Positions 7,342 to 59,568 of a stretch of DNA of 64,000 nt are shown one piece after another. Below the pieces are notes generated by a model that worked only from the letters and a program-made list of their open reading frames with translations, was not told the origin of the DNA and did not search any database. Position numbers and translations under genes: made by a program. Location: contig NZ_JAHESD010000002.1 of the NCBI RefSeq assembly GCF_018598585.1, positions 124,001 to 188,000 on the forward strand, given 5' to 3'. This DNA is from Chryseosolibacter indicum. GTDB lineage: Bacteria > Bacteroidota > Bacteroidia > Cytophagales > Cyclobacteriaceae. Each line of letters begins with the position of its first letter. The stretch's first letter is position 1.

Positions 7342-8751
7342 ATGAGACTAAGGCATCATGCATTCCTCTACGCATTGCTTTTCACAGCATTTGCTGCACA
7401 TTCACAAGGTTCAGAAACCTATAATTCCGGTGTAAAGGTGAACCTCGATCCGGAAGGAAATAAGTACGTTCGTTTTATCATCTGGAATCAGATCTGGATG
7501 AGATCCATTCAACACAACGATGGCACAGCGGTAAATGGAGTTCCCAGTAACAATACGTGGGATATTGGCGCAAGAAGACTTCGCTTTTTAGCCTACGCAC
7601 AAATAACACCACGTTACCTGGTACTAACACATTTCGGTATTAACAACCAGTCTTTTGCTACAGGGGGTGCATCAGGTTCGTCAGGTACCGGAGGATACGG
7701 TGCGGGTAAAAAGCCAGGCATCTTCTTTCACGATGTCTGGAATGAATATGCCATTGTCCCTGCAGTAGATCCTGAGACAAAGACACCCAACAAATACAAC
7801 GTATACCTTGGTGCAGGATTACATTATTGGTGGGGTATCAGTCGCATAAGCAGTGCCAGTACATTAAACTTTCTTGCAATAGATGCACCTGTTGTCAACT
7901 GGCCTTTGGTAGATTTAAGCGATCAGTTTGTAAGACAGTTCGGTGTTTACACGAAAGGCAGACTTGGTAAATTGAATTACAACTTTAGCGTTAACAAACC
8001 CTTCGCTACAAATCTGACACCCGCCGTCGACCCTTTAAAAGGAAGGGTTGCAGTAGATAATAATGGTGATGCCAAGCCTGCCGTTCAGGGATATTTTGAT
8101 TACCAGTTTCTTGATCAGGAAAGCAACGTACTGCCTTACAGGGTTGGAACATATGTCGGCACCAAAAAGGTGTTTAACATTGGTGCAGGGTTCTATCATA
8201 ATAATAACGGTACCAGAAGCCTCGACGCCGCAGGCGATCTGCAACGTCATAACATTACCTTAATCGGTGTTGATGTTTTCGCTGATATGCCCATAGGATC
8301 TAAAGAGAAGAATATGGCAATTACCGCTTATGGCGTATATTACAATTATGATTTTGGTCCTAACTATATTAGGCACGTAGGCATTATGAACCCGGCCGCA
8401 GGTTTCGATCCAAACTACACAGGGCCAAGGTCCGTTCAGGGCTTCGGTAATAATCGTCCTTTTGTAGGTACCGGAAATATTATTTACGCACAAGCCGGGC
8501 TGTTATTACCCAAAGGTATCAGTGGTAAACTTCGTTTACAGCCCTTTGGTGCTTTTACATTGAAAGATTTTGAATATCTTGATGAGACAGGAAGTTATAT
8601 TGATTTTGGAGCTAATATTTTCCTTGATGGTCATCATGCTAAAATAACCCCGCAGTACAGCATAAGACCTCAGTACTTCACGCAGAACGATAGGAGGGTA
8701 GTTGATGGTAACAAAGGAGAATTTATGATTCAACTCCAGGTCTATTTATAG
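7342..8751 (+). CDS. Outer-membrane porin
   Basis: 469 residues with a cleavable signal peptide (LLFTAFAAHSQG). The rest is Gly/Asn/Tyr-rich with alternating beta-strands (KVNLDPEGNKYVRFIIWNQIW, RLRFLAYAQITPRYLVLTHFG) and a C-terminal strand ending in an aromatic-rich segment (GEFMIQLQVYL). Length and texture fit a phosphate-selective/OprP-like or general Bacteroidota porin. It is 27 bp upstream of an MHS-family inner-membrane transporter, so the two probably form an outer-plus-inner-membrane uptake route for one small metabolite. The ATG at 7342 gives the full signal peptide. Confidence 0.85.
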   Translation: MRLRHHAFLYALLFTAFAAHSQGSETYNSGVKVNLDPEGNKYVRFIIWNQIWMRSIQHNDGTAVNGVPSNNTWDIGARRLRFLAYAQITPRYLVLTHFGINNQSFATGGASGSSGTGGYGAGKKPGIFFHDVWNEYAIVPAVDPETKTPNKYNVYLGAGLHYWWGISRISSASTLNFLAIDAPVVNWPLVDLSDQFVRQFGVYTKGRLGKLNYNFSVNKPFATNLTPAVDPLKGRVAVDNNGDAKPAVQGYFDYQFLDQESNVLPYRVGTYVGTKKVFNIGAGFYHNNNGTRSLDAAGDLQRHNITLIGVDVFADMPIGSKEKNMAITAYGVYYNYDFGPNYIRHVGIMNPAAGFDPNYTGPRSVQGFGNNRPFVGTGNIIYAQAGLLLPKGISGKLRLQPFGAFTLKDFEYLDETGSYIDFGANIFLDGHHAKITPQYSIRPQYFTQNDRRVVDGNKGEFMIQLQVYL

Positions 8752-50841: not shown

Positions 50842-53787
50842 TCATTTTTTAATAATTCTAACTGTTGAGATGTTGCTTCCCGCTATAACTTTAAGTAAAT
50901 ACACACCAGAAGGAAGTTGAATGCCAATATCATACTTCTCGTTATAACGCAGGTTACTATAGCTTTCTCTTACATTACCATAGTAATCGGTGATACTTAC
51001 GTCAAATGTTGAATTTGGAGGCCCATCAATATTTAGGGTAGAGCTAAGTGTAAATGGATTTGGATAGTTAGTAATAATGTGTTGGCTCGGTGAATTCATG
51101 TCCTTTTGCGCTACATATACCTCCTCATCAAGACATGGTCCAGGTATTGCACTTTCATCCAATGAAAATAACTCTCTGCCCAATCGTGGATCAGTTGAGG
51201 TTAAATAAATTGTATTATCCAACATTGTAAGATTTTGTGGTGAGCCACTTGTCAATATAGGAAAGGTTCCACATGTTGTGCCGTCAGTTCTCCAAAGGTT
51301 ATTCTGAGGTGTATTATTTACAGAACCTGTAAAATATATCATATTACCTTTTCTTGTGATGTCAGAAAATCTTGTGAGGTTATCAATAGGGTTCAGAATG
51401 GCAACTGTTCCTTCAGAAGTACCATTGGTCTTCCAAAGAGCGCCAGGGAGAAATGTACTCCTTACATAAGACGTAGCTACAATAAGATCTTCGCCTGTTC
51501 TTCCGAGTAAGTACATGCTGTAAATACGGGCTCCTTCTGGTGTATCGAATGTAGCTACTTCTACTGTGCCAGCTTCTGTTCCATCCGATTTCCATAATTG
51601 ATTATCCGACTGAAAATATAAGGTGTCTTCAAGACTGGTAAGACCATTTGGATTAATATCCTTGACTCTGAAAGTGCCACTTTCTGTTCCATCACTCCTC
51701 CATAATTCATAATCTCCTGTATAAGCTACAAAGTACAAGATGTTTTTAACATTGATTAATTGAGAAGGCGCACTTGGTTCAAGGGGATTAGGATTAATTT
51801 TTTTGACCATTACTGTGCCAGCGGAAGTACCATCACTTTTCCAAAGTTCTTCGCCGACTTCAGGATCTGTTAATGCAGAAAAGAAAAGTGTACCATTTAC
51901 ATTGGTCAACCAGATAGGAGGTGCACCCACTTCATTGAAAGATCGAATATATTCAGTGCTTTCAATAGTTCCTGTTGTTTTCCAAAGCTGTGCTTCACGC
52001 GGAAATTCCTGCCCGGCAATCATCGGAACTTCAATTGAGAAAAATAATGTTCCATTAACATCTTCCAGGTCTCCTATATAATCACCTCCACCTTTATTGA
52101 TATCTGTTACCCAGGTTGTTTCATCATTGATAAGGTTCGTCCGCCAGAGTTTAATATCTAATGTAAGGGAGTCAGTATCGATAGAGTTGGCCCAATAGTA
52201 GAGGTAATTTCCAGATTGCGTGAGGTATTGGACATTATCTTCAAACCGGTGGACAAGACTTGTACCATTCAATGTGCCGTCACTTTTCCATAAACCATAA
52301 GTAAATCCATCAAAGGCACTGAAATACATCATACCGTTTGCGACAATAAAATTCTCGGGATTACTATCGCGTGTACTAAAGAGTAATTGGTTAATACGTT
52401 GGTGGGTTGATCCGTTTGTTCGCCATAGGCTTCCATTTATAACATAGTAAAGGAAATTGCCAGAAGATGTTAAATGCGTGAGGCTGTAGTATCCGTTCGA
52501 ATCGCTAATAACGGATTTTAAGCTTTCAGGGGTGGCGTCAATACCGAAGATGTGAACAGTGTTAAGCTGGGTTGCCCACGAGGCAAGAAAATGCATTGAC
52601 CCTTTAAATCCTGTAAGATCAGGATAGCCAGTGAGACGCATTTGGTTATGGTTTGTTAAACTCATGGTTCCATTTTCTGTTCCATCGCTTATCCATAAAT
52701 CATAATTGGAAGTTGCTACAAAGTAAAGTTTGTTATTATAGCTGGTGAGATAATTAAGATATTGGGGGCTTCGGGAGCCAGGAACAATATCTTTTACTAA
52801 TTGGGTACCCGCAGCTGTTCCATCACTCTTCCAAAGTTCAACGCCATGGGCAGCGTCTTTTCCTGTAAAATACAATACACCGTTAACATGAGTTAGTTGT
52901 GTTGGCTCTGTCATATCATCAACAGGTGTATGTAATGGAGTCCCGCTGTTTTCTCCAACTTTTGCTACCATCATTGTTCCTTGTGCAGTACCATCACTCA
53001 CCCAGAGGCGTCTAAAAAAGGATTCATCATATGCCACAAAGAATAATTTGCCTTCAATGTTGATCAGGTCCCTGGGATGACTGCTCACTCTGTGCTGGGG
53101 ACGAATGTCTTTCATCATCCGAGTTCCTTCTGTAGTGCCATCCGTTATCCATATCTCATATCCATGCTGCCCATCATTTGTAACGAAGTATAGCAGACCG
53201 TTCATGTTGGTAAGACTAGATGGGTTGCTGCTGCCAACAACCCGCATGATATCCATTACGATAGATGTTCCCTGAGTTGTTCCATCAGATTTCCAGAGCT
53301 CACGACCTCTTGAACCATCATGTGCTGAAAAGAAAACTAATCCGTTGCTATACGTGAAAAGGGAGGGATCACTTCCATTTATTCCTGGATTAATATCCTT
53401 AACCATTACAGTACCATTGGAAGTGCCATCGGTTTTCCATACCTCATTTCCGTGAATACCATCATTCGCAGAAAAATATAAGATGCCATTCATACTTGAC
53501 AGGTTGCTTATAAAGTCAAGCTCCTTCAGCATGATTGCTGTTGAATCAGGTTGTTTGATTACCCAAAGTTGTCTGCTCTTCAGGACAAAGTATAAGTCAC
53601 CATTTACATCTGTCCAACCGGAGTAGTCGTTGAATGTTAATGGTTCGCCAGTTGCATTAATATCCTTAACAAGTTTAAGTACCTCTGTATTTACTTGTCC
53701 GTACAGAGTCATGAAAGATGCAGATGAAAGTCCGCTCAGCAGAAAAAATATTCTGATAAGAGACGTGAAATGTACATGTTTTCTCAT
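50842..53787 (-). CDS. Giant ELWxxDGT-repeat secreted protein with T9SS type A sorting domain
   Basis: 981 residues. Signal peptide. The body holds 15 repeats centred on a [LVI]W.[ST]DGT box (11 strict, such as EVWKTDGT and ELWKSDGT; four degenerate, such as SLWRTNGS), spaced about 45-65 residues apart. Each is followed by a GT/ST and a hydrophobic V-strand, suggesting a beta-propeller. C terminus: NYPNPFTLSSTLNID ... LPSGVYLLKVIAGSN ... RIIKK, the type A T9SS signal. Function unknown; probably surface or secreted. Confidence 0.92.
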   Translation of the reverse strand: MRKHVHFTSLIRIFFLLSGLSSASFMTLYGQVNTEVLKLVKDINATGEPLTFNDYSGWTDVNGDLYFVLKSRQLWVIKQPDSTAIMLKELDFISNLSSMNGILYFSANDGIHGNEVWKTDGTSNGTVMVKDINPGINGSDPSLFTYSNGLVFFSAHDGSRGRELWKSDGTTQGTSIVMDIMRVVGSSNPSSLTNMNGLLYFVTNDGQHGYEIWITDGTTEGTRMMKDIRPQHRVSSHPRDLINIEGKLFFVAYDESFFRRLWVSDGTAQGTMMVAKVGENSGTPLHTPVDDMTEPTQLTHVNGVLYFTGKDAAHGVELWKSDGTAAGTQLVKDIVPGSRSPQYLNYLTSYNNKLYFVATSNYDLWISDGTENGTMSLTNHNQMRLTGYPDLTGFKGSMHFLASWATQLNTVHIFGIDATPESLKSVISDSNGYYSLTHLTSSGNFLYYVINGSLWRTNGSTHQRINQLLFSTRDSNPENFIVANGMMYFSAFDGFTYGLWKSDGTLNGTSLVHRFEDNVQYLTQSGNYLYYWANSIDTDSLTLDIKLWRTNLINDETTWVTDINKGGGDYIGDLEDVNGTLFFSIEVPMIAGQEFPREAQLWKTTGTIESTEYIRSFNEVGAPPIWLTNVNGTLFFSALTDPEVGEELWKSDGTSAGTVMVKKINPNPLEPSAPSQLINVKNILYFVAYTGDYELWRSDGTESGTFRVKDINPNGLTSLEDTLYFQSDNQLWKSDGTEAGTVEVATFDTPEGARIYSMYLLGRTGEDLIVATSYVRSTFLPGALWKTNGTSEGTVAILNPIDNLTRFSDITRKGNMIYFTGSVNNTPQNNLWRTDGTTCGTFPILTSGSPQNLTMLDNTIYLTSTDPRLGRELFSLDESAIPGPCLDEEVYVAQKDMNSPSQHIITNYPNPFTLSSTLNIDGPPNSTFDVSITDYYGNVRESYSNLRYNEKYDIGIQLPSGVYLLKVIAGSNISTVRIIKK

Positions 53788-54049
53788 GGTAGTAGTATTT
53801 AAGATTTTACATCTACCAGTGGGATTAAGGAGGGAATGGAGAGCCCAATGAGAGGGCTGTTGATGATGCTACTAATTTACCAGTCTCTTTTGGTTTTGTG
53901 AAGATTAATTTGACTAAAGTTAAACAGGCAATGGATCGGCGAAACTTCTTACATTCCTGTGCCGCTAATTACAGTTTTCAACTGTTATGTATCTTTCTAT
54001 TATTAAGGTATTTACAAATCCAAAAGACATAGAATTAATGTTTTAACAA
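53788..54049. other. Divergent spacer between the ELWxxDGT gene and imuA
   Basis: AT-rich, with no gene. It must hold the minus-strand promoter of the ELWxxDGT gene, for which I saw no exact CAAAnnTA element. The imuA promoter and its palindromes begin at 54050 and are listed separately. Confidence 0.4.
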
Positions 54050-54099
54050 CTAAATATATTAGTTTATTTGGCTAATTTAATTAGTATAAACTACCTTTG
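54050..54099 (+). promoter_or_regulatory. imuA promoter with two palindromic candidate operators
   Basis: -33 box TTTG at 54067-54070 and -7 box TACCTTTG at 54092-54099, spacing 21 bp, an exact Bacteroidota consensus. Two 13-bp palindromes sit on it: CTAAATATATTAG (54050-54062) and CTAATTTAATTAG (54072-54084), both CTAA-N5-TTAG, with centres 22 bp apart, two helical turns. One lies just upstream of -33 and one within the spacer, a natural position for a repressor. The cassette is damage-induced in other bacteria, so a LexA-type or other SOS repressor is a candidate. Confidence 0.75.
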
Positions 54100-54120
54100 C
54101 TTCCGGAAGCGGGGGTTATT

Positions 54121-54852
54121 ATGATTTTGAATAGAAAAGCAGATATTCTAACTGAGCTACAATCAGATATTCTTCGGTTACAGGGATTTCGTACAGTTAA
54201 TAATGGTTTACTTGATGCTGATTTGGGAGTAATAAAGCAAGCTTTTCCAAATGCATCCTTTCCGTTGTCTTGTATACATGAGTTTATTACATCGCAGCAG
54301 GAACATCGTGCCGCAACAAATGGCTTTCTTTCAGGATTACTTTCTTCATTGCTAGGCGTGGATGGTGTATTACTTTGGATCGGTACCTCACGTTATCTCT
54401 TTCCTCCATCGCTTCCAGCTTTTAATCTTTCTCCGGAGCGTATCATCTTCATTGATGTTTCAAAACAAAGAGATGTGCATTGGGTAATGGAAGAAGCGCT
54501 AAAGTGTAAAGCACTTACTGCTGTAGTTGCAGAAGTGAAGGAAATAAGTTTTATAGAATCCCGACGTTTTCAGCTTGCAGCAGAGCAAAATAAGGTAACT
54601 GGTTTTCTTCTTTGTCATCAAACAAAAAAGATAAGTGCAACTGCATGCGCATCGCGATGGAAGGTCTCTCCATTACCGAGTGAAACAATTGATGATTTAC
54701 CTGGTGTAGGTAGTCCTAAATGGCATGTTGAACTTATGAAAGTGAGAAATGGCAAGCCTCAAAGCTGGGATATCCAATGGGTTGATGGAAAATTTGTACC
54801 AATCTATAAAACAGTATCATTATTTACTGAACAAAACCAAAAAGCAGGATGA
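54121..54852 (+). CDS. imuA: ImuA, RecA-like accessory protein of the mutagenesis cassette
   Basis: 243 residues from the ATG at 54121; the TTG at 54097 lies inside the promoter -7 box. RecA/SulA-like fold with no clear Walker A. Segments typical of Bacteroidota ImuA: ADILTELQSDILRLQGF, PLSCIHEFITSQQEHRAAT, VLLWIGTSRYLFPPSL, FIDVSKQRDVHWVMEEALKC and a C-terminal PKWHVELMKVRNGKPQSWD. ImuA supports DnaE2 translesion synthesis with ImuB. It is 3 bp upstream of imuB. Confidence 0.92.
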   Translation: MILNRKADILTELQSDILRLQGFRTVNNGLLDADLGVIKQAFPNASFPLSCIHEFITSQQEHRAATNGFLSGLLSSLLGVDGVLLWIGTSRYLFPPSLPAFNLSPERIIFIDVSKQRDVHWVMEEALKCKALTAVVAEVKEISFIESRRFQLAAEQNKVTGFLLCHQTKKISATACASRWKVSPLPSETIDDLPGVGSPKWHVELMKVRNGKPQSWDIQWVDGKFVPIYKTVSLFTEQNQKAG

Positions 54853-54855
54853 GAG

Positions 54856-56349
54856 ATGGGGCGTTTTGTTTCAATATGGTTCCGCTATTTACGCACGGAC
54901 TGGTTTTCTCTCCGACAACCTGAATTAAAGAAATTGCCATTTGTTCTTCGCTCTCCTTCCCGGGGACGAATGATTATTACGGCAGCAAATTCTGTAGCAG
55001 CACAGCAAGGCTTACATTGCGAAATGGCAGTTGCCGATGCAAAGGCTTTAGTGCCCGAATTACAAGTACAGGATGATATACCAGATCTTACTGATAAGTT
55101 ACTCCGACGGCTTGCAGAATGGTGTATCCGTTTTACACCACTTGTAGCTATCGATCCTCCTGATGGCCTTTTGTTTGATGCAACAGGCTGTTCGCATCTT
55201 TGGGGTGGTGATGACAAATACATTGAAGACATTACGAGAAAGCTGCAAGCACGTGGTTATGATGTGCGTATAGCAATGGCAGATACAGTAGGGATTGCGT
55301 GGGGTGTTGCCCGTTTTGGAAATGGTTCATTGATTATTGAAAGTGGGATAACAATAGATGCGTTGGTAAATCTACCACCTGAAGCTTTGCGCCTAGAAGC
55401 AGATGTTACTGAACGTTTGCATAAATTAGGACTACATACCATTCGTCAATTTATTCGCATGCCACGTACTTCATTAAGAAGGCGTTTTGGTCAGCATTTT
55501 TTGCAGCGTTTGGATAAGGCCCTGGGGAGCGAAATAGAAATACTTAGTCCTGTTCATCCAGTGGAGTTGTACCAGGAAAGATTGCCTTGCTTTGATCCGG
55601 TAGCAACATCTACAGGTATTGAGATGGCATTGAAAGAATTACTTACCAAGCTTTGCTTTCGTCTTCAACGTGGACAGAAGGGACTTCGGAAAGCTATTTT
55701 TAAAGGTTATCGTATAGATGGAAAAGTAGAGAAGGTTGAAGTTGGGACCAATCGACCGTCACACCATGTTGAACATCTTCTTAAACTGTTTCAAATTAAT
55801 TTAGGAACAATTGAACCATCTTTAGGTATTGAACTATTTGTTTTGGAGGCTCCGATCATAGAAGAGTACTTGCCGCAGCAGGAGCAGATGTGGAATGAAT
55901 CGGGTGGGCTTGAGGACATTCGTTTATCTGAATTGCTTGACAGGTTAGCTGTAAGAATTGGTGCACATGTTATTCACCGTTATCTTCCTGATGAACATTA
56001 TTGGCCAGAGCGTTCTGTAAAACTTGCCACCTCACTCCAGGAAAAGCCAAGCACTCAATGGCCTATTAAACCGAGGCCTGTGCAATTATTGCCTAAGCCT
56101 GAACCTATTGAAGTTACGGCACCTATTCCTGACTACCCACCTATGTTATTTCGCTATAAAGACAAGGTGCATATGATTAGCAAAGCTGATGGACCAGAAC
56201 GCATTGAACAAGAGTGGTGGTTGCAGCAAGGCCAACATCGTGATTATTATCGTGTAGAGGATGAGGAGGGACGCCGGTATTGGATATTCAGGTTAGGACA
56301 TTACCATGACAAAATTTATCAATGGTTCCTGCATGGATTTTTTGCGTAG
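54856..56349 (+). CDS. imuB: ImuB, inactive Y-family polymerase-like adaptor
   Basis: 497 residues. Y-family polymerase fold with LVAIDPPDGLLFDATGCSHLW and the helix-hairpin-helix (LHKLGLHTIRQFIRMPRTSLRRRFG). The Pol IV catalytic carboxylate motifs (like HxDMDAFFA and SIDEA) are replaced (SIWFRYLRTDW, LLFDATGC), so it is very probably not a polymerase, as known for ImuB. The segment PQQEQMW resembles a Q-x-x-M-W beta-clamp motif. C-terminal ImuB-specific domain. It bridges ImuA, the clamp and DnaE2. Six bases separate it from dnaE2. Confidence 0.93.
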   Translation: MGRFVSIWFRYLRTDWFSLRQPELKKLPFVLRSPSRGRMIITAANSVAAQQGLHCEMAVADAKALVPELQVQDDIPDLTDKLLRRLAEWCIRFTPLVAIDPPDGLLFDATGCSHLWGGDDKYIEDITRKLQARGYDVRIAMADTVGIAWGVARFGNGSLIIESGITIDALVNLPPEALRLEADVTERLHKLGLHTIRQFIRMPRTSLRRRFGQHFLQRLDKALGSEIEILSPVHPVELYQERLPCFDPVATSTGIEMALKELLTKLCFRLQRGQKGLRKAIFKGYRIDGKVEKVEVGTNRPSHHVEHLLKLFQINLGTIEPSLGIELFVLEAPIIEEYLPQQEQMWNESGGLEDIRLSELLDRLAVRIGAHVIHRYLPDEHYWPERSVKLATSLQEKPSTQWPIKPRPVQLLPKPEPIEVTAPIPDYPPMLFRYKDKVHMISKADGPERIEQEWWLQQGQHRDYYRVEDEEGRRYWIFRLGHYHDKIYQWFLHGFFA

Positions 56350-56355
56350 GGAGAA

Positions 56356-59300
56356 ATGAGCAGCATGAATTATATTGAATTACAAGTTACATCCAACTTC
56401 AGTTTTTTACGAGGGGCATCGCATCCGCAAGAATTTGTTGAGCAAGCAAAAGCCTATGGCTATTCAGCAATTGCTATCACAGATCGGAATACATTTGCCG
56501 GTATTGTACGTGCACATGTTGAAGCTAAAAAGCAAGGCATCAGAATAATTCCAGCGTGCAGACTAGATCTTCTTGACGGCCCAAGTTTACTTGTTTTTCC
56601 TACCAATAAAGATGCATATGCCCGTATATCAGCCTTGCTTACCACCGGGAACCTGAGAACTGAAAAAGGAAAATGTGATCTCTATAAATCAGACGTTTAT
56701 CAACATGCCAGGGGATCGAAGTTTATAGTTATACCACCTGTAAATCTCAATGCTGCGTTTGATTTTGAAGATGAATTCAAGAAAGAACTGAAGGAATATA
56801 AAGATACTCTGGGCGAGCATTTATATATAGCAGCATCCCGCTCTTATTCCGGTGATGATGCAAAGAAGCTACATCGTATCTCGCAATTATCTCAGCAACT
56901 GGTGATGCCTATGGTTGCTACAAATGATGTGCATTATCATCACCCCATGCGAAGGGAGCTGCAAGACATTGTAACCTGTGTACGGGAGAAGTGTACTATA
57001 CACAATGCAGGCTTCAGGTTGTATGCTAATGCAGAACGTTATTTAAAACCAATTGAAGAAATGAACCGCTTGTTCAGGCAATATCCTGATGCTATTTATC
57101 AAACACAGGTAATAGCAGAAGCATGTTCGTTTGCATTGGACGAGTTGCAATACTGTTATCCTGAGGAGCTTACTACTGAAGGGCGAAGCCCCCAAGATGA
57201 ACTTGCTTTCTTAACCAAACAAGGAGCAGAACAAATGTATGGCAAGGATATTCCTGAAAAAGTGAAGGCAAATATTGAGCACGAGTTATCCTTCATTGAG
57301 AAAATGAATTATGCGGCTTATTTCCTTACTGTATATGATATTGTTCGTTATGCACGTGATCAGAAAATATTATGTCAGGGCAGGGGTTCAGCGGCCAATT
57401 CCACTGTATGTTATTGTTTGGGGATAACCTCTGTTGATCCGTCAAAATTTGACTTATTATTTGAGCGCTTTATTTCTTCTGCCCGAAATGAGCCACCCGA
57501 TATTGATGTTGACTTTGAGCATGAAAGGAGGGAAGAAGTAATGCAGTATATCTATAATAAGTACGGGCGTGATCGTGCTGCAGTTGTTGCTACTGTTACA
57601 CAACAACATCATAAAGGGGCCATCAGAGATGTAGGTAAAGCCATGGGGTTATCAGCTGATATCATAAGTCGTTTGTCTGGTTTGATATGGGATTTTTCAG
57701 AGGAGGGATTTGACAGGAACAGAATTATCAGCCAGGGTATTAACCCGGATGATCCTACAATCAGGAAAGTACTTGAGCTGACAAATCAATTCATTGGTTT
57801 CCCTCGCCAGTTAGGGCAACATACAGGAGGTTTTGTAATTACACAAGGCAAGCTATCAGATCTTTGTCCTATTCTGAATGCACGTATGAAAGATCGCACC
57901 AATATTGAATGGAATAAAGATGATATTGATGCGTTGCATTTTCTTAAAATTGATGTGCTGGCCCTAGGCATGCTCACTTGTATACGTAAAGCTTTTGATC
58001 TGGCTAAAGCCCACTATAACCTTGATCTTACACTTGCTAATATTCCACAGGATGACCCGCAGGTTTATAAAATGGTGAGTCATGCTGATACTATTGGGGT
58101 TTTCCAGATCGAGAGCCGCGCGCAGCAATCTATGTTGCCCAGATTGCAGCCCAAGGAGTTTTATGATCTTGTAATTGAAGTTGCCATTGTGAGGCCTGGT
58201 CCTATACAAGGAGATATGGTGCATCCTTATTTGCGAAGACGTAATGGGCAAGAACCTGTTGAGTATCCCTCAAAGGAGTTGGAAGAAATATTAAGTCGCA
58301 CCCTGGGTGTGCCCTTGTTTCAGGAGCAGGCTATGAAGATTGCTATTGTTGCAGCAGGATTTACTCCAGCCGAGGCTGATGCGCTTCGTAGGAGTATGGC
58401 TACATTTAAAGTAAAAGGGCAGGTGTCACACTTTGAACAGAAGCTTATTAATGGCATGGTGAAAAACGGTTATAAGCTTGAGTATGCACAACGAGTATTC
58501 AGACAACTTGAAGGGTTTGGAAGTTATGGTTTCCCTGAGAGCCATGCGGTGAGCTTTGCTCTTCTTGTATACGTTTCTTCCTGGATCAAGTGTTATTACC
58601 CGGATGTATTTGCTTGTGCCTTACTTAACAGTATGCCTATGGGTTTTTACCAACCAGCACAGATCATTATAGATGCACGCAAACATGGTGTTGAAGTAAG
58701 GCCGGTGGATGTTAACCATTCTTATTGGGATAATAACCTGGAAGAGAAATCAGGAGAATTTCATGCGCTTCGCTTAGGTTTTCGACAGGTTAAAGGTTTG
58801 AGGGAAGAGGAAATGAAGTTACTGGTCAATGCCAGGAAGGATGGCTTTGGTTCTATAGCAGAACTTCGCAGAAAGACAGGACTTACAGATACCGTACTTG
58901 AAAAACTTGCTGATGCAGATGCATTTCAGTCAGTAGGGCATGATAGAAGAAAAGCATTATGGGAAGTTTCGGTACAGGATTACCGTAATGATCTGTTTGC
59001 GGGGCAACACATTCATGAGCATGGAGTGAAGCTGCCGGAGATGACCTTACCTGAGCATGTGGTTCAGGATTATGCAGCAACATCGTTGTCGCTGAAAGCT
59101 CACCCGGTAGGGCTTATACGAAGTCAGCTTGATCAATTGAATATTCTCTCCGCATCAGCCCTTGCTACAAGGAAAAACGGTGATCTTGTTAAGGTAGCAG
59201 GTTTAATTCTTGTACGACAAAGACCAGGAACAGCAAAAGGCATCTGCTTTATTACAATAGAAGATGAAACAGGCACCGCTAACTTAGTTGTATTCCATCA

Positions 59301-59568
59301 GTTGTTTGATCAATATCGAAAGGAGATCATTCAATCCAGACTGCTTATGGTAGAAGGACAGCTTCAGATTGAAGGTGAAGTGATTCATGTGATTGTGAAG
59401 CGTTGCTATAATTACTCGAGGTTATTACAACGCCTCACATCCGCGAAAGCGGAACTTTCATTAAAACCTACTTCCAGATCAGATGAAACTACATCACCTT
59501 TCCTCTCAAAAAAAGAAAGTGAGGTTGTACAAGGGCATATATTCCCTAAGGGAAGGAATTTTAAATAG
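56356..59568 (+). CDS. dnaE2: Error-prone DNA polymerase III alpha subunit DnaE2
   Basis: 1070 residues, normal for DnaE2. PHP domain at the N terminus (ELQVTSNFSFLRGASHPQEF, then AIAITDRNTFAG). Polymerase core with catalytic Asp382 and Asp384 in PPDIDVDFEHERR, and the third Asp in FLKIDVLALGML. GRGSAANS segment, helix-hairpin-helix (GSIAELRRKTGL) and OB fold (VKVAGLILVRQRPGTAKGICFITIEDETG). It makes translesion DNA past damage. ATG at 56356 or 56365 cannot be decided. Last gene of the cassette. Confidence 0.96.
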   Translation: MSSMNYIELQVTSNFSFLRGASHPQEFVEQAKAYGYSAIAITDRNTFAGIVRAHVEAKKQGIRIIPACRLDLLDGPSLLVFPTNKDAYARISALLTTGNLRTEKGKCDLYKSDVYQHARGSKFIVIPPVNLNAAFDFEDEFKKELKEYKDTLGEHLYIAASRSYSGDDAKKLHRISQLSQQLVMPMVATNDVHYHHPMRRELQDIVTCVREKCTIHNAGFRLYANAERYLKPIEEMNRLFRQYPDAIYQTQVIAEACSFALDELQYCYPEELTTEGRSPQDELAFLTKQGAEQMYGKDIPEKVKANIEHELSFIEKMNYAAYFLTVYDIVRYARDQKILCQGRGSAANSTVCYCLGITSVDPSKFDLLFERFISSARNEPPDIDVDFEHERREEVMQYIYNKYGRDRAAVVATVTQQHHKGAIRDVGKAMGLSADIISRLSGLIWDFSEEGFDRNRIISQGINPDDPTIRKVLELTNQFIGFPRQLGQHTGGFVITQGKLSDLCPILNARMKDRTNIEWNKDDIDALHFLKIDVLALGMLTCIRKAFDLAKAHYNLDLTLANIPQDDPQVYKMVSHADTIGVFQIESRAQQSMLPRLQPKEFYDLVIEVAIVRPGPIQGDMVHPYLRRRNGQEPVEYPSKELEEILSRTLGVPLFQEQAMKIAIVAAGFTPAEADALRRSMATFKVKGQVSHFEQKLINGMVKNGYKLEYAQRVFRQLEGFGSYGFPESHAVSFALLVYVSSWIKCYYPDVFACALLNSMPMGFYQPAQIIIDARKHGVEVRPVDVNHSYWDNNLEEKSGEFHALRLGFRQVKGLREEEMKLLVNARKDGFGSIAELRRKTGLTDTVLEKLADADAFQSVGHDRRKALWEVSVQDYRNDLFAGQHIHEHGVKLPEMTLPEHVVQDYAATSLSLKAHPVGLIRSQLDQLNILSASALATRKNGDLVKVAGLILVRQRPGTAKGICFITIEDETGTANLVVFHQLFDQYRKEIIQSRLLMVEGQLQIEGEVIHVIVKRCYNYSRLLQRLTSAKAELSLKPTSRSDETTSPFLSKKESEVVQGHIFPKGRNFK

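Follow-up and report, generated by a model that had tools for sequence, protein, structure and literature searches.

Introduction

In several other phyla, imuA operons are controlled through canonical LexA/SOS boxes. In phage lambda, the repressor CI acts at OR1 and OR2, neighbouring operators that lie slightly over two turns apart, over a promoter. Here we have analysed the imuA-imuB-dnaE2 cassette of Chryseosolibacter indicum in a stretch of 64,000 nucleotides (from now on, the window; NCBI RefSeq assembly GCF_018598585.1, contig NZ_JAHESD010000002.1, positions 124,001 to 188,000 of the forward strand), in which two palindromes of the form CTAA-N5-TTAG precede imuA.

This palindrome is the operator motif that Sanchez-Osuna et al. 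(2021, PMC8565304) published for the non-canonical LexA of Bacteroidetes, a phage-CI-like S24 protein, and in the literature collection consulted a full-text search for the motif string matched this paper only. In the passages of the paper used here, the Pontibacter actiniarum protein binds CTAA-N5-TTAG in gel shifts, both dyads and the spacer length being required, mitomycin C induces several regulated genes, imuA-imuB-dnaE2 is among the predicted targets in several species, and the regulators of the group show extensive paralogy. A preliminary description of our locus had suggested CTAA-N5-TTAG as the damage-repressor operator of this lineage. The idea has been in print since 2021, and it is supported here by the identity with the published motif and by the conservation of the motif before imuA; an inference made from sequence alone has been borne out. 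According to our analysis, both palindromes are very probably operators of a non-canonical CI-like LexA that represses imuA-imuB-dnaE2, most likely a protein of 257 amino acids (aa) encoded next to dinB.

A conserved, probable operator pair over the imuA promoter

Direct reading of the window bore out the two palindromes, the 22 base pairs (bp) between their centres and the promoter, all exactly where the preliminary description had placed them. The TTTG element and TACCTTTG are separated by a 21-bp spacer, and we take this pair of boxes to be a Bacteroidota-type promoter. The upstream palindrome, CTAAATATATTAG, is separated from the -33 element by 4 bp; the downstream one, CTAATTTAATTAG, sits within the -33/-7 spacer, where it occupies 13 of the 21 bp. 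A pair with exactly this 22-bp distance occurs a single time in the 5.8-Mb genome.

We then searched for the motif in the 300 bp upstream of imuA at 95 loci, comprising 15 genomes of the family with an ImuA match (of 118, that of the window included; genomes are cited by G numbers below) and 80 named loci, the best of at least 557 confirmed. Exact sites stand before imuA at 82 of the 95 loci (nine of the 15 family genomes and 73 of the 80 named loci), far above dinucleotide-shuffled upstreams, of which a mean of 0.9 and a maximum of 3 carried the motif. The preliminary description had named a lack of such conservation as grounds against its reading, and the comparison does not refute it. The runner-up among all 256 palindromes of the same shape was present in 11 of the 95 upstreams. 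Four genomes are present in both sets and, after removing the doubles, 78 of 91 upstreams have at least one exact site, although the 91 loci are not independent events because the named loci were picked by ImuA likeness and are related. The loci sampled include Cytophagales, Chitinophagaceae and Sphingobacteriaceae. In addition, 43 of the 82 site-bearing upstreams have a TAnnTTTG box close to their last site (shuffles: mean 5.8, largest 16).

A candidate repressor encoded beside dinB

The genome, which is 99.4% complete, gave two S24 matches, named here after their contigs, C44 (257 aa) and C11 (297 aa). Both proteins combine HTH_3 with S24 and carry AGYL and GDSM/GHSM, and neither matches a LexA DNA-binding model. 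The C44 protein presents QKASAGYL, GDSMLP and, as read by eye from the alignment, a Lys in IVFKRAF; structural matches gave no full-length solved relative, nearly all of the eight being to the HTH. Its XRE-S24 gene is divergent from dinB, and the region between them holds two sites 33 bp apart, an exact one 12 bp before dinB and another with one mismatch. Seen from the C44 gene, the exact site lies 219 bp upstream, so that the motif is present in the gene's own upstream region, which it shares with dinB. The same dinB/XRE-S24 region contains two exact sites 33 bp apart in G084, G074, G015 and G093. The C44 protein is the most likely repressor of imuA.

Dimers bound at both palindromes would occupy the -33/-7 spacer and the DNA immediately ahead of the -33 element, keeping RNA polymerase off imuA-imuB-dnaE2. 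Upon DNA damage, RecA filaments would trigger self-cleavage of the repressor at its Ala-Gly bond, and the departure of the dimers would then let the mutagenic cassette be expressed. For C. indicum itself we infer binding, repression, induction, the paralogue responsible and the cooperation of the two sites.

Regarding canonical LexA/SOS control of imuA, the cassette is the same and a self-cleaving S24 damage repressor is likewise expected, but here the candidate regulator has no LexA winged helix, and the box differs. The likeness is closer to the CTAA-N5-TTAG regulon described in PMC8565304, which shares with our genome the identical motif, dyads and 5-bp spacer, an HTH_3 and S24 regulator with Ala-Gly and Ser-Lys, the targets dinB, SplB and imuA-imuB-dnaE2, and several promoters with two or more sites. 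In contrast to that regulon, ours belongs to a different genus, its recA has no site within one mismatch, and a pair spacing rule (21-23 or 31-34 bp) is found here only, as far as the passages used from that paper show.

Alternative explanations

The palindromes might have arisen by chance in a spacer rich in A and T, or might belong to the promoter itself, with no repressor bound. The region is indeed AT-rich (29% G+C over 53950-54117, against 40% for the window), and the window does not hold significantly more motifs than expected (4 vs 1.72, with 13 of 100 shuffles equally high); the other two, at 8360 and 28477, fall within open reading frames (ORFs). The promoter consensus was rejected as stand-alone evidence, a match being no rarity (one in the window, 0.56 expected from shuffles). 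The conservation before imuA nevertheless refutes chance, which we consider extremely improbable. Among adjacent pairs before imuA, 19 of 25 have their centres 21-23 bp apart (19 of the 91 non-redundant loci, the window's included), and these 19 show 14 different spacer sequences; the dyads therefore persist while the spacer drifts. Moreover, three pairs with their centres 13-43 bp apart were observed in the whole genome (5,805,109 bp), for which its 83 exact sites, if evenly spread, would yield about 0.04. The signal beyond chance thus lies in pairing and in conservation before imuA, not in the number of motifs.

One could also argue that the other XRE-S24 paralogue, C11, binds the palindromes, alone for the most part or jointly, and that C44 is not the main regulator of imuA. 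The extensive paralogy reported for the Bacteroidetes group in the passages of PMC8565304 speaks for such an arrangement, but even with one mismatch allowed no site lies in the C11 locus, the two proteins share 35% identity and differ, by eye, in the putative recognition helix, and G084, G015, G093 and G074 keep the imuA motif while having only the dinB-linked S24 match. We therefore judge it unlikely, although less so than chance. Apart from C11 as a possible binder, several points weigh against repression of imuA by C44 through these operators. Within the tree of the family, C44 is no more than a putative member of the CTAA-N5-TTAG cluster. Six of the 15 imuA-bearing family genomes lack the motif at imuA. 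Genome-wide over-representation of the motif was rejected, with 83 sites vs 178 for the reversed control, and 11 vs 21 when only A/T-only spacers are counted. Finally, no CTAA-N5-TTAG, exact or with one mismatch, stands in the recA promoter of the window's genome; the two near-matches are distant from the start of the gene, and recA is not supported as a member of this regulon within that limit.

Spacing of the predicted operator pairs

In the near-genome group G000, G084, G015 and G093, which was chosen after seeing the pair list, all 23 pairs (gaps of 0-30 bp) have centres 21-23 bp (11 pairs) or 31-34 bp (12 pairs) apart, with none at any of the other 24 possible spacings. G074, a near imuA-bearing genome read afterwards as a check, gave 22, 22, 31, 32, 33 and 33 bp, all six fitting. 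Together, the five near genomes present 29 of 29 pairs at 21-23 or 31-34 bp, but many of the pairs belong to orthologous promoters and do not count as independent. Among the remaining imuA genomes that have CTAA sites, G028 (32 bp), G044 (33 bp) and G017 (24 bp, outside the rule) have one pair each, and G100 has none.

Over all 118 family genomes we counted 108 pairs, in comparison with 29 for the reversed control. By a hand tally in which three identical copies in G112 count once, 106 pairs remain, distributed as 36 at 18-20 bp, 25 at 21-23 bp and 26 at 31-34 bp, the rest being 8 at 24-30 bp, 3 at 13-17 bp and 8 at 35-43 bp. Counts outside 18-23 and 31-34 bp are at chance level. The pairs of other genera (G006, G011, G042, G059, G061, G089, G112 and others) are mostly spaced by 18-20 bp, and the joint is often rich in TA (TTAGTAAATACTAA, for example). 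With all genomes taken together, a clean period of 10.5 bp was not established: periods of 11-14 bp fit 73 pairs equally well or better, owing to the preference of the other genera for 18-20 bp. Only in the near genomes is the two-class rule clear. In 54 upstreams with a single site, the best second-site scores stood at -32 (3.26 of 8) and -21 (3.20 of 8), over a background with a mean of 2.39 and a standard deviation over offsets of 0.30, which is suggestive but weak.

The simplest reading that the spacing suggests is same-face cooperative binding, although a helical period is not proven. We tentatively propose, at somewhat less than even confidence, that this CI-like LexA may act via operator pairs about two or three helical turns apart, its same-face dimers being cooperative as those of lambda CI. 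The parallel with lambda CI at OR1-OR2 consists of a CI-like N-terminus, an S24 C-terminus and a comparable operator spacing over a promoter. It differs in that cooperativity is read here from spacing alone, that host repair genes and not phage genes would be controlled, and that the repeated box is CTAA-N5-TTAG. The spacing rule is absent from the main-text passages of PMC8565304 used here, and the main text of that paper nowhere contains the string 'cooperativ'; both the rule and the motif-less clade described below go beyond those passages.

imuA loci without the motif

Exact CTAA-N5-TTAG is absent before imuA at 13 of the 95 loci. In an ImuA tree of 94 rows (one of the 95 was too short; midpoint root), nine of the 13 form one side of a branch with support 100/94, namely three Dyadobacter and the family genomes G018, G095, G034, G105, G026 and G067; the other four are L063, L079, L098 and L128. 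A divergent XRE-S24 gene adjoins imuA in seven of the nine, that is, in the six family genomes and in Dyadobacter sp. CY345 (imuA upstreams L026, L028, L029, L031, L032, L033 and L093). Between this gene and imuA, five of the six family genomes carry an exact TTTGACA-N7-TGTCAAA, and G067 (L032) a half-decayed one. Dyadobacter has TTGTTA-like palindromes before imuA instead, and in L093 a TTTGTT-like palindrome stands between the two genes.

Exact copies of TTTGACA-N7-TGTCAAA per genome number three in G034, one each in G105, G018, G095 and G026, and none in G067. Five of these seven copies are at imuA, and neither of the other two has an ORF of at least 70 aa starting within 320 bp downstream. 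When one mismatch is tolerated, the clade's six family genomes have 40 sites vs 12 for the reversed control, and the nine others 26 vs 20; a few more sites are therefore possible in the six. Judging by these arrangements, the clade looks like an operator change together with a regulator paralogue, as described for Elizabethkingia in the passages of PMC8565304. Genome G044 has an S24 gene beside imuA, yet keeps its CTAA sites there.

Other predicted members of the regulon

Locations were obtained for 51 of the 83 genomic sites, around 27 of which were viewed in their sequence context, and for six more; the survey covers all but 26 sites with G or C in the spacer. The three genomic pairs precede imuA (22 bp) and a PA0069/SplB-like radical SAM gene (21 bp), and lie between the genes of an ATP-dependent DNA ligase and a 122-aa protein (34 bp). 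Eight of the 11 sites with an A/T-only spacer are before or between genes: dinB/lexA-like, SplB-like, imuA (two), ligase/122-aa (two), a 123-aa protein gene and a doubtful one on contig C118. The remaining three comprise two in coding sequence and one at a gene end, 18 bp before the next gene. Another site, C89, is intergenic, 37 bp upstream of an ORF.

G084 belongs to the same genus as the window's genome, and presents pairs at recA (22 bp; L216, the recA of the window's genome being L054) and at the SplB-like gene (23 bp). Since recA has a pair in G084 and no site within one mismatch in the window's genome, the predicted regulon differs within the genus.

The 122-aa and 123-aa proteins (genes L144:1130-1498, minus strand, and L139:1555-1926, plus strand) resemble each other, and neither has a Pfam match over the cut-off or any NCBIfam or PHROGs match. 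Likely relatives, identified by eye, stand beside paired sites three times in G084 and three times in G015 (L213, L215, L218, L220, L221 and L222), often divergent from an ATP-dependent DNA ligase gene. This family, repeatedly found beside CTAA-N5-TTAG, is a candidate new SOS gene.

Organization of the locus

The coordinates of the promoter elements, the predicted operators and the operon are collected in Table 1. The imuA product matches the ImuA model NF033429 with an E-value of 1.6e-14, yet at 54 bits, below the cut-off of 150, and has no Pfam match. The ATG is the more likely start of imuA, over a TTG at 54097 given by the ORF listing, which falls within the -7 box; the queries of our ImuA searches started at 54118, one codon ahead of this ATG. 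Divergent from imuA lies the gene of a 981-aa protein (50842-53787, minus strand) that combines repeated ELWKSDGT-like motifs with a Por secretion tail (PF18962) and looks ordinary.

Table 1. Promoter, predicted operators and genes of the imuA-imuB-dnaE2 locus in the window
Feature	Position	Strand	Basis or remark
Operator 1 (predicted), CTAAATATATTAG	54050-54062 (centre 54056)		Read from sequence and pattern match
-33 element, TTTG	54067-54070	+	Presumed Bacteroidota-type promoter
Operator 2 (predicted), CTAATTTAATTAG	54072-54084 (centre 54078)		Read from sequence and pattern match
-7 element, TACCTTTG	54092-54099	+	
imuA	54121-54852	+	NF033429, gene order, relatives
imuB, Y-family polymerase-like	54856-56349	+	PF00817 IMS over cut-off
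dnaE2, error-prone DNA polymerase	56356-59568	+	NF004225 over cut-off; PF07733, PF17657, PF14579, PF02811

Discussion

Our results extend the range of a damage-response operator already in print to the mutagenic cassette of a further genus of Cytophagales, and the spacing rule allows a cheap and specific test of cooperativity. If the paired operators do cooperate, the damage switch would have a sharper threshold than single sites would give, with the spacing class set for each gene: two turns at imuA, at the SplB-like gene and, in G084, at recA, and three at dinB/lexA-like and ligase/122-aa. Finally, the imuA clade in which the regulator gene is divergent and the palindrome altered offers a natural case of a damage regulon that may have switched operators.
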